64,000 nucleotides of DNA from Microbacterium sp. UFMG61 (GTDB lineage Bacteria; Actinomycetota; Actinomycetes; Actinomycetales; Microbacteriaceae), in contig NZ_JACAFP010000007.1 of the NCBI RefSeq assembly GCF_015354505.1, positions 37,317 through 101,316 of the forward strand. Direction: 5' to 3'. The stretch's first letter is position 1. Each line of letters opens with the position of its first letter. A program made the translations under genes and the position numbers. The notes beneath the pieces are model-generated. The model was not told where the DNA came from. It searched no databases and was given only the letters and a program-made list of their open reading frames with translations. Below are positions 54,051-57,014 of this stretch, piece after piece.

Positions 54051-55531
54051 CAGATGGCTCCAGCCGTGGTCGCGCCCGCGTTGACGGGCTCTTCGTTCGA
54101 CAGGTCGCTGGGGCTGGAGAGCGTGCCGCGGATGGCGGTCGCCGCCGCGACAAGCGGCGAGACGAGGTGCGTACGCCCACCCTTGCCCTGTCGTCCCTCG
54201 AAGTTGCGATTCGACGTCGACGCGCAGCGCTCCCCCGGGGCGAGCTGGTCGGGGTTCATGCCGAGGCACATCGAGCATCCGGCGAAACGCCACTCGGCGC
54301 CGAAGTCCTTGATCACCTGATCGAGGCCCTCGGCCTCGGCTTCCAGGCGCACGCGCGCGGACCCCGGAACGACCATCACACGGACGCCGTCGGCCTTCTT
54401 CTTGCCCTTGACGATCGAGGCGAATGCGCGCAGGTCCTCGATGCGACTGTTCGTGCATGACCCCATGAAGACGGCATCCACCGGCACCGCCTTGAGCGGC
54501 GTGCCCGGAGTGAGGTCCATGTACTCCAGCGCTCGTTCTGCGGCTGCCCGCTCGTTGGCATCGGCGATCTCGGCGGGGTCGGGGACCGCGGCGGAGAGCG
54601 AGCTGCCCTGGCCGGGGTTGGTGCCCCAGGTCACGAACGGCTCGAGCTCGTCGGCGTCGATGAACACCTCGGCGTCGAAGGTCGCGCCCTCGTCGGTGGG
54701 CAGCGTGCGCCAGTAGGCGACGGCATCGTCCCAGTCCTTGCCCTTGGGCGCATGCGGGCGCCCCTTCAGGTACTCGAACGTCGTCTCGTCGGGGGCGACC
54801 ATGCCCGCGCGGGCTCCGGCCTCGATCGACATGTTGCAGATCGTCATGCGGCCCTCCATCGACAGCGACCGGATGGCGCTGCCGCGGAACTCCAGAACGT
54901 AACCCTGACCACCGCCGGTGGTGATCTTCGCGATGACCGCGAGGATGATGTCCTTCGCCGTCACACCGGGGCGCAACGTGCCCTCGACGTTGATGGCCAT
55001 GGTCTTGAAAGGCTTGAGCGGCAGCGTCTGCGTCGCCATGACGTGCTCGACCTCGCTCGTACCGATGCCGAAGGCCATGGCGCCGAAAGCTCCGTGGGTC
55101 GACGTGTGCGAGTCGCCGCAGACCACGGTGATGCCGGGCATCGTCAATCCGAGCTGCGGTCCGACGACATGGACGATGCCCTGCTCGGCATCGCCCAGCG
55201 AGTGCAGACGCACGCCGAACTCGGCGGCGTTGCGCCGCAGGGTCTCGATCTGGGTGCGGCTCGTCAGGTCGGCGATGGGCTTGTCGATGTCCCACGTCGG
55301 AGTGTTGTGGTCCTCTGTCGCGATCGTGAGATCGAGACGTCGCAGTGGACGGCCTTCGGCGCGCAGACCGTCGAAGGCCTGCGGGCTCGTGACCTCGTGC
55401 ACCAGATGCAGGTCGATGTAGATGAGGTCCGGCTCGCCGTTCTCGCCCTTGACGACGAGGTGGTCGTCCCAGACCTTCTCGGCCAGGGTCCGGCTGCGTG
55501 CGGGAGCAGAGTCTGCTGAGGGGGTGTTCAT
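54050..55531 (-). CDS. leuC: 3-isopropylmalate dehydratase large subunit
   Basis: A 493-residue aconitase-family protein. Iron-sulfur ligands lie in [12 protein letters not shown] and [40 protein letters not shown] and [12 protein letters not shown] are diagnostic. ATG 55531 follows AGGAGAGAAGC. It is preceded by a leucine-containing leader peptide and a hairpin, so it is probably controlled by leucine supply. Confidence 0.96.
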
Positions 55532-55572
55532 TGCTTCTCTCCTGAAGATGGCGGGTCGGCCCACGATGGACT

Positions 55573-55611
55573 CCGCGACGAGGAGGGGCTCAGAACGAGG
55601 TCTCGTCGCGG
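55573..55611 (-). promoter_or_regulatory. Attenuator-like hairpin in the leuC leader
   Basis: On the transcript CCGCGACGAG (from 55611) pairs with CTCGTCGCGG (to 55573), ten perfect base pairs around a 19-base loop. The first arm is the part of the leader peptide that encodes Gly-Arg-Asp-Glu, directly after the leucine codons, so ribosome position would decide whether the hairpin forms. No T-run follows. Confidence 0.6.
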
Positions 55612-55637
55612 CCGCTAAGAAGGAGCACGATCCGCAT
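55590..55637 (-). CDS. leuC leader peptide
   Basis: A 15-codon ORF reading [15 protein letters not shown] and then TGA, with three consecutive leucine codons (CTC CTT CTT). It ends 58 bases before leuC. There is no ribosome binding site, but an extended -10 lies 6 bases upstream, so the message is probably leaderless, as is common for actinobacterial leader peptides. Coding sense and stop position fit leucine-responsive attenuation. Inferred, not a known entry. Confidence 0.65.
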
Positions 55638-55643
55638 GACGTC

Positions 55644-55652
55644 AGGTTACCA
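55644..55652 (-). promoter_or_regulatory. Extended -10 of the leuCD transcript
   Basis: On the minus strand TGG followed by TAACCT matches an extended -10 (TGn-TAnnnT). It ends 6 bases before the leader-peptide ATG, so transcription would start at or next to the A of ATG. No good -35 is visible. Confidence 0.45.
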
Positions 55653-55681
55653 CCGCTCGAACGGTGCGCGACGCGCCGTGA

Positions 55682-55693
55682 CACAGTACTGTG
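55682..55693. promoter_or_regulatory. Palindrome between leuC and the sulfhydrylase gene
   Basis: CACAGTACTGTG is a perfect 12-bp palindrome, 25 bases before the sulfhydrylase ATG and about 30 bases upstream of the leuC -10. It may be an operator for one or both divergent genes. Confidence 0.4.
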
Positions 55694-55718
55694 ACCCGCA
55701 CCTTCGAGAGGCACCCGC

Positions 55719-57014
55719 ATGACCGACGACACCACCGGCTTCACCACCAGAGCTGTGCACGCCGCGAGGAGTCAGGGGGCCGCGTCGTCGAGAGCCACCC
55801 CGATCTACCTGACGGCGGGATTCGAGTTCGACGACTTCGACCACGCGGCTGATCACTTCGGCACCGGCGCAGGATTCGGCTACACCCGCACCGGAAACCC
55901 CACGATCCATGCGGTCGAGCGTCAGCTCGCGGCCCTCGAGTCCGGCGCGGATGCGGTTCTCGTCGCCAGCGGGCAGGCGGCCGTCGTCACAGCGCTCCTC
56001 ACCGTGGCGGGCGCCGGCGACCACATCGTCTCGTCGACCCACATCTACGAGGGCACACGCGGCCTGCTCCTCGACAATCTCTCACGCCTCGGCATCGACG
56101 CCACGTTCATCGACGACATCGGAGACCCTGAGGCATGGCGGAGGGCGATCCGCCCGAACACCAGAGCCCTGTTCGCGGAGTCGATCGCGAACGCCCGCAA
56201 CGACATCCTCGACATCGAGGCGGTGAGCGCCGTCGCGGACGCCGCTGCGATCCCGCTCATCGTCGACAACACCCTCGCCACGCCCTTCCTCGTGCGGCCC
56301 CTCGAGCACGGCGCCGCGATCGTGGTGCACTCCGCGTCGAAGTTCCTTGCGGGCCATGGATCGGTGCTCGGCGGCGTCATCATCGACGACGGACGTTTCG
56401 ACGCCGAGCGGGCCGGCCACAACGCCCCGCATCTGGTGCTTCCCGGCCGCGGTGGGGTGCCCAGCGTCGCGGCGCGACACGGCGGCAAGGCGCGAATCGC
56501 GTACGCCCGCGAGTCGGTGGCGCCCCGCTTCGGAGCATCGCCCTCTCCCCTGAACGCCTTCCTGATCGGCCAAGGAGCGGAGACGCTCGGTCTTCGGGTC
56601 GAGCGCCAGTCCCGCAACGCCCTCGAGGTCGCACGCTGGCTGGCCGCGCAGGATGCGGTGGAGAGCGTCGACTACGTCGGACTCGAGAGTCACCCGGATC
56701 ACGCGCTCGCTCGGAAGTATCTCCACGGCGGCCATGGGTCGATCTTCACGTTCACTCTGCGCGGCGGACTCGAGGCGGCGCGCGACTTCGTCGAGAGTGT
56801 TCGGGTGTTCACCCACATGACGCACATCGGGGATGTCCGCTCCCTCGTGCTGCACCCGGGGACGACCAGTCATTCCCACCGCACGCAGGAGGAACGCGAC
56901 GTCCTGGGCGTGCAGCCGGGGACCCTGCGCCTCTCGATCGGGATCGAAGACGTCGCCGATCTCCTCGCGGATCTCGCGCGCGTGCTGGAACCGGCGCGAG
57001 AGGCCGTCGCGTGA
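55719..57014 (+). CDS. O-acetylhomoserine sulfhydrylase-like PLP enzyme
   Basis: A 431-residue Cys/Met-metabolism PLP enzyme. [35 protein letters not shown], the lysine motif [17 protein letters not shown] and the C-terminal [18 protein letters not shown] with LRLSIGIED place it in the O-acetylhomoserine aminocarboxypropyltransferase group, making homocysteine from sulfide. Cystathionine-type activity is not excluded. Its stop overlaps the flavin monooxygenase gene (GTGA), so the pair may serve sulfur scavenging. Confidence 0.9.

Follow-up and report, generated by a model that had tools for sequence, protein, structure and literature searches.

An actinobacterial LEU element upstream of leuCD in Microbacterium, and its possible exchange with NdgR/LtbR

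Introduction

The closest described relative of the leader considered here is the LEU element, which Seliverstov et al. (2005) found before leuA in most Actinobacteria and which has three parts: a leader ORF with a Leu run, a pseudoknot, and a pairing of the Leu codons with the Shine-Dalgarno sequence that makes up a base stem (PMC1262725). Their genome set includes Leifsonia xyli, of the same family as the genome studied here, and the element was reported only for leuA (plus a transposase fragment). Codon-based attenuation was judged unlikely for it (PMC1262725). As relayed by the same paper, whose conclusion is that the Leu codons have no influence on regulation, Craster et al. (1999) saw effects of leuA leader mutations that are inconsistent with classical attenuation.

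Several other actinobacterial leaders are comparable. LeuL1 of Streptomyces lividans (MRFGLLLLSCRGEGL) is reported to be leaderless and to lack a typical terminator and, in the accessible part of its report, precedes leuA only (PMC8079986); a copy before leuC is the difference here. The leuA leader of Corynebacterium glutamicum is likewise a Leu-run leader, with four consecutive Leu codons before leuA (accessible part of PMC4046766). The Corynebacterium ilvB-II uORF is also a branched-chain leader in an actinobacterium, but unlike the case described here it has a predicted terminator and antiterminator, according to the portion of PMC10272879 that was available.

Results

A leader ORF, hairpin and pseudoknot ahead of leuC

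The window (the whole stretch analysed) is 64,000 nt of Microbacterium sp. UFMG61 (GCF_015354505.1, contig NZ_JACAFP010000007.1, 37,317 to 101,316). The features that matter are:

55644..55652, minus strand: extended -10 TGGTAACCT (TGG TAACCT), read from the sequence; in 110/110 genus loci the start codon follows TAnnnT by 6-7 nt
55590..55637, minus strand: leader ORF, 15 codons plus TGA (ATG 55637-55635, stop 55592-55590), conserved in the genus
55617..55625, minus strand: sensor codons CTC CTT CTT (Leu-Leu-Leu), with ATC GTG (Ile, Val) just before
55602..55611, minus strand: 5' arm of hairpin P1, CCGCGACGAG, within the leader ORF; paired in 53/53 aligned sequences
55586..55589, minus strand: 5' strand of the pseudoknot, GCCC, in the hairpin loop directly after the leader stop
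55573..55582, minus strand: 3' arm of P1, CTCGTCGCGG, from the alignment
55559..55562, minus strand: 3' strand of the pseudoknot, GGGC, from the alignment and helix scoring
55539..55543, minus strand: Shine-Dalgarno of leuC, AGGAG; the Leu codon run is its complement, and a helix between the two is possible
54086..55531, minus strand: leuC, 3-isopropylmalate dehydratase large subunit (NCBIfam TIGR00170, above cut-off), first gene of leuCD
55719-57014, opposite strand to leuC: divergent neighbour, a PLP enzyme of Cys/Met metabolism (Pfam)

The 5' half of the leader reads ATG CGG ATC GTG CTC CTT CTT AGC and is followed by GGC CGC GAC GAG ACC TCG TTC TGA. Codons GGC CGC GAC GAG contain the 5' arm of P1, a perfect 10-bp hairpin. 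A first-pass annotation of this DNA had pointed to the three successive Leu codons running into a 10-bp hairpin arm and to an extended -10 six bases upstream of the leader start; both are present, on the minus strand, which it left unstated. Since the start codon lies 6 nt past the -10, a leaderless mRNA is predicted. Leaderless sensors of this sort have reportedly been described by Canestrari et al. (2020) in mycobacteria, there as short ORFs with poly-cysteine runs. A pair scan of 55480-55760 returned no -35/-10 pair, so the extended -10 is what carries the promoter assignment. The leuD of this operon is a presumed one, assigned by its position. Among the 80 top-ranking named LeuC matches, out of at least 591, the closest are from Microbacterium (94-95%).

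Between leuC and the divergent PLP-enzyme gene lies a perfect 12-bp palindrome, CACAGTACTGTG (55682-55693). It was dropped as a functional site: among 12 loci compared it occurs at the window locus only and, having no counterpart in the 11 others, is probably due to chance.

Conservation within the genus

A DNA search matched the element in 59/59 genus genomes (matches weaker than about 1.3e-5 were left out, two of them at 1.7e-5 and 2.7e-5 and the others at 2e-4 or worse). A DNA search of the window's own genome returned a second copy, upstream of leuA, with the leader MPFGGLLLLSCRDESSS. The genus set comprises 112 loci: 58 before leuC (one a duplicate), 53 before leuA, and one cut by a contig end. 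Dropping L001 (a duplicate of L003) and L099 (the contig end) leaves 110 loci (57 leuC, 53 leuA; 101 distinct sequences), in which L068 and L069, identical pieces of one genome, are both counted.

Leader architecture is held tightly across these 110 loci. An in-frame ATG (72 loci) or GTG (38) follows TAnnnT by 6 nt in 101 loci and by 7 nt in nine, and TGn precedes TAnnnT in 85. Start and last Leu codon are 18, 21 or 24 nt apart, with no other spacing, and the frame is preserved in 110/110 despite these 3-nt length changes. Conservation of the Leu codons, on which the first-pass annotation had staked its reading beforehand, holds up well: the sensor run ends in LLL in 108/110 loci and in LL in the other two. 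Its last codon is CTT in 110/110, a codon that makes up 9/198 Leu codons in five window ORFs; the pattern used to anchor the loci includes this final CTT, and no locus failed it.

The two gene contexts differ in what accompanies the Leu run. Leaders before leuC have an Ile codon in 34/57 cases and a Val codon in 19/57, with both in 6/57, the MRIVLLL of the window included; leaders before leuA have Val in 3/53 and Ile in 0/53. The leuC copies are thus not purely leucine. The common leuA leader peptide in the genus is MRFGGLLLLSCRDESSF or similar, and LeuL1 of S. lividans, in the accessible part of its report, is nearly the same peptide (PMC8079986).

Folding of the window leader as a single sequence is no better than that of shuffles (z -0.49), so the decisive evidence for the element is conservation. 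For a structural alignment, 5/110 loci with longer or odd linkers were omitted and the remainder thinned to 53. P1 is paired in 53/53 of these, and at two of its ten pairs both sides have changed. The hairpin loop forms a pseudoknot with a strand about 10 nt past the hairpin; in the MAFFT register, where several rows are shifted by one at this helix, 84% of cells are paired. Scored in a free register, the two strands covary (own partners 14.2, versus 12.1 ± 0.24 for shuffled partners; 50 shuffles). The pairs are GGGCC/GGCCC in 47 leuA loci, GCCC/GGGC in 16 leuC loci, GGACC/GGTCC in two leuA loci, and others; in four leuC loci the best helix is an unrelated one (CTCGAT/ATCGAG and similar). In four leuA copies (L049, L059, L067, L083) the linker from P1 to the pseudoknot strand is longer and may contain an extra hairpin.

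The Leu run could also pair with the Shine-Dalgarno sequence, 84-131 nt separating the last Leu codon from the gene start in leuA and leuC copies. Over the 110 loci the predicted pairing averages -10.0 kcal/mol, versus -7.4 when shuffled and -7.9 when the Leu run is recoded with CTG (own better in 78/110). Partners swapped between leuA and leuC pair less well than a locus's own; within a gene there is no covariation of the Leu run with the Shine-Dalgarno, permuted partners pairing equally well. In nested folding with a modelled ribosome (ViennaRNA), the mean unpaired Shine-Dalgarno is 0.27 free, 0.41 with a stalled ribosome and 0.34 with the ribosome at the stop. Stalling beats the stop position in 27 and loses in 10 of 53 leuA loci, and wins in 26 and loses in 19 of 57 leuC loci. 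The window locus runs opposite to a switch model (0.57 free, 0.30 stalled, 0.49 at the stop). With a small mean effect and many exceptions, no clear nested-fold switch emerges; as ViennaRNA cannot model the pseudoknot, the test is not decisive either way.

No U-run follows the hairpin, the longest T-run to the gene start being ≤4 in 110/110 loci; in the 8 nt past the hairpin 109/110 loci have ≤4 T, and L086 has five. A terminator scan found none (loops of 3-8 nt only, a range outside which P1 falls; 0.1 expected by chance). The absence of a T-run, which the first-pass annotation had remarked on, is a property of the whole genus set.

A known element in an apparently new place

By sequence comparison, the element in the window is a copy of the LEU element, with the pseudoknot matched to the published description and not strand by strand. 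The two share a Leu-rich leader ORF, a conserved pseudoknot, the lack of a terminator, and a potential for pairing between Leu run and Shine-Dalgarno. The window copy differs in lying upstream of leuC; its paralogue in the same genome is upstream of leuA. Position before leuA is the place where the element was discovered and not part of its mechanism. The copies analysed here further differ from the 2005 set in including Val/Ile/Leu versions before leuB-ilvE in other families. This is a known element at a new location and not a new kind, and the leuC placement appears new: among the matches listed in the open-licence literature, we found no report that places the LEU element ahead of leuC or leuB. 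Neither L001 nor L002 matched any Rfam 15 model at E ≤ 1, and in the window the one Rfam match at gathering score was a tRNA.

A covariance model, R1, built from the leuA and leuC copies of the genus, matches 115/120 family, 115/149 order and 172/197 class genomes (the family in these counts taken as Microbacteriaceae, members of which are also in the order and class draws). Judged from these sequence matches, the window copy is homologous to the class-wide leuA copies. With three exceptions, the matches inspected outside the family sit in leuA or leuB loci; L169 (26.6 bits) and L251 (at a contig end) have neither gene nearby, and L259 has only a weak LeuA match. TAnnnT stands 5-8 nt before the start codon in 10/14 class-wide leuA leaders examined and is missing from the other four.

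Within the family, 74/115 genomes with leuC have the element before it (50 by eye from coordinates, plus 12/33 and 12/32 inspected sequences), 40 are without it and one has a decayed-looking version; where a genome has two LeuC-like matches, the better one was used. The decayed-looking element, upstream of leuC at L172 (G075), scores 18.5 bits and was not counted, and a second species of the same genus has an intact one (L173, 42.8 bits). A tree of 118 element sequences, built for dating the duplication, did not resolve and places leuC copies in more than one group; its rows labelled 'outleuA' (L118-L120) are actually family members.

Copies before leuB-ilvE carry other codons

Eleven copies from five other families lie before leuB (L167, L168, L265, L266, L269, L271, L273, L274, L277, L278, L281), a number that is not a frequency estimate, as they were found through second matches in chosen genomes. 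By eye from coordinates, ilvE is just downstream of leuB in 11/11. The same hairpin follows sensor runs that read LVIL, VVILI, VFVLI, VLVLI, LVVI, VRIL, VLIL or IFVL. Val, Ile and Leu are all present in 11/11 of these leaders, and three Leu in a row in 0/11. Val or Ile falls within the last three sensor codons in 11/11 leuB-ilvE copies versus 0/110 leuA and leuC copies, so that the sensor codons match the operon downstream. Only two of the 11 have TAnnnT 5-8 nt before the start codon; nine are without it. The copies end 125-645 nt before leuB, a distance at which a codon:Shine-Dalgarno helix cannot be general.

In most cases (L167, L168, L265, L266, L269, L271, L274, L277, L278, L281) a small ORF of about 26-45 codons, with an end motif like LQEAMDRRDNGGETGH, separates the LEU-type element from leuB. 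For four examples, Pfam and NCBIfam gave no match at E up to 0.1.

The element and NdgR/LtbR at leuCD

NdgR has been described as the adjacent regulator of leuCD (accessible parts of PMC10331944 and PMC4340878). In 24 leuC upstream regions from 19 other families of the order, the element occurs in 0/24 and a divergent IclR-type gene in 24/24 (66-100% identical to the query, one being its source; IclR domains by Pfam). Its place beside leuCD identifies this gene as NdgR/LtbR. The 80 top-ranking named leuC loci, out of at least 591 matches, divide in the same way. The 32 from Microbacteriaceae have the element in 22 and NdgR in 0, and the 48 others have the element in 0 and NdgR in 46, on the opposite strand in all 46. 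Family membership of the 32 is presumed from their names, most of the genera being listed under the family. Among the 22, the L289 element and the leuC match downstream of it are about 670 nt apart, and the L287 element overlaps the first bases of its leuC match. Taken together, the 72 loci outside the family (24 from the order sample plus 48 named, with possible overlap of species) have the element in 0/72 and a divergent NdgR/LtbR-type gene in 70/72, the exceptions being L335 and L358.

At E 1e-40, NdgR was found in 0/120 family genomes; as a control, the same search recovered it in 15/15 genomes from other families in which its presence had been established. Six weaker IclR-type matches occur in the window's genome, the best at 35% identity. 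In the genomes examined, leuC copies of the element are seen only where NdgR was not found. NdgR is missing family-wide in this sample, and the element is not universal there; we infer that the element may have replaced a lost NdgR/LtbR at leuCD in Microbacteriaceae, in whichever order loss and gain took place.

Discussion

So, does the ribosome sense leucine ahead of leuCD? We consider it probable, at roughly two in three, that this copy of the LEU element controls leuCD through ribosome-mediated leucine sensing. The first transcribed base is probably the A of the leader ATG. With charged tRNA-Leu plentiful, the ribosome would pass the Leu codons, reach the stop codon in the hairpin loop and depart; the message would then take up its default fold of P1 and pseudoknot, in which the Leu codons may also pair with the Shine-Dalgarno of leuC. 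That fold would keep leuCD low, by blocked initiation and/or by Rho acting on untranslated message. When leucine is short, a ribosome stalled on the Leu codons would cover the 5' part of P1 as well as the codons that would otherwise pair with the Shine-Dalgarno, and leuCD would be expressed. The output step may be translation or Rho. In favour of translation, the Leu codons could form a helix with the Shine-Dalgarno, and swapped partners pair more weakly; in favour of Rho, a U-run is lacking and the distance from the leuB copies to leuB is too great for them to occlude it directly.

How far do other explanations reach? A purely Rho-dependent attenuation, which overlaps with the sensing mechanism just outlined, would have leader translation set Rho loading on the C-rich region past the leader stop while the fold tunes RNA polymerase pausing, with no role for the Shine-Dalgarno. 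The lack of a U-run for an intrinsic terminator and the 125-645 nt before leuB, over which a codon:Shine-Dalgarno helix is not general, both suit it, and Rho has been suggested for similar cys leaders (PMC1262725). A plain Rho model, however, has no need of the conserved pseudoknot, and in leuA and leuC copies the gap from last Leu codon to gene start stays fairly short (84-131 nt); on balance we find it unlikely. An RNA element bound by a protein, with the regulator reading P1 and pseudoknot and the leader codons secondary, fits the strong conservation of that fold and the class-wide R1 matches, and an ML1624-type DEAD-box protein was suggested in 2005 (PMC1262725). Yet the sensor codons vary with the operon while the hairpin stays constant, and frame, start codon and -10 spacing are preserved in the genus. 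A match of codons to operon is expected of a sensor of charged tRNA, and a protein that merely binds the fold would hardly account for it; we consider this second option rather improbable.

The first-pass annotation had proposed a leaderless leucine leader peptide and attenuator at leuCD. The leader peptide, the predicted leaderless start and the link to leuCD are well supported by conservation and by the S. lividans leuA homologue (accessible part of PMC8079986), and termination at the hairpin is not. The hairpin does overlap the leader ORF, and L086 (1/110) has its five T in 8 nt, but T-runs of ≤4 between hairpin and gene start in 110/110 loci speak against a classical transcription attenuator with a U-run terminator and make this reading very improbable. 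A chance meeting of short ORF and hairpin, without function, could point to the single-sequence fold; it is already refuted by conservation over genus, family and class, and its probability is negligible. What that annotation did not contain is that the element was already known, its pseudoknot, the leuA paralogue, and the coincidence with the absence of NdgR.

Returning to ribosome-mediated sensing, a wider reading is tentative, and we would not quite bet on it: the LEU element as a modular, terminator-free ribosome sensor that spread over the actinobacterial branched-chain regulon, with a fixed hairpin and pseudoknot and exchangeable codons, which read as a Leu run before leuA and leuC and as Val-Ile-Leu before leuB-ilvE, and that replaced NdgR/LtbR at leuCD in Microbacteriaceae. 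It is weakened by the Ile and Val codons of the window leader and by the lack of the -10 spacing in most leuB leaders.

The chief points of interest are the apparent exchange of regulators and the codon-swapped copies. The leuB-ilvE copies amount to a natural experiment in which the codons match the products of the operon, which favours codon-specific sensing by the ribosome and reopens that question for the LEU element despite the verdict of 2005. With leuC copies present only where NdgR was not found, the idea that an RNA sensor took over from a transcription factor at leuCD in Microbacteriaceae becomes a testable proposition.
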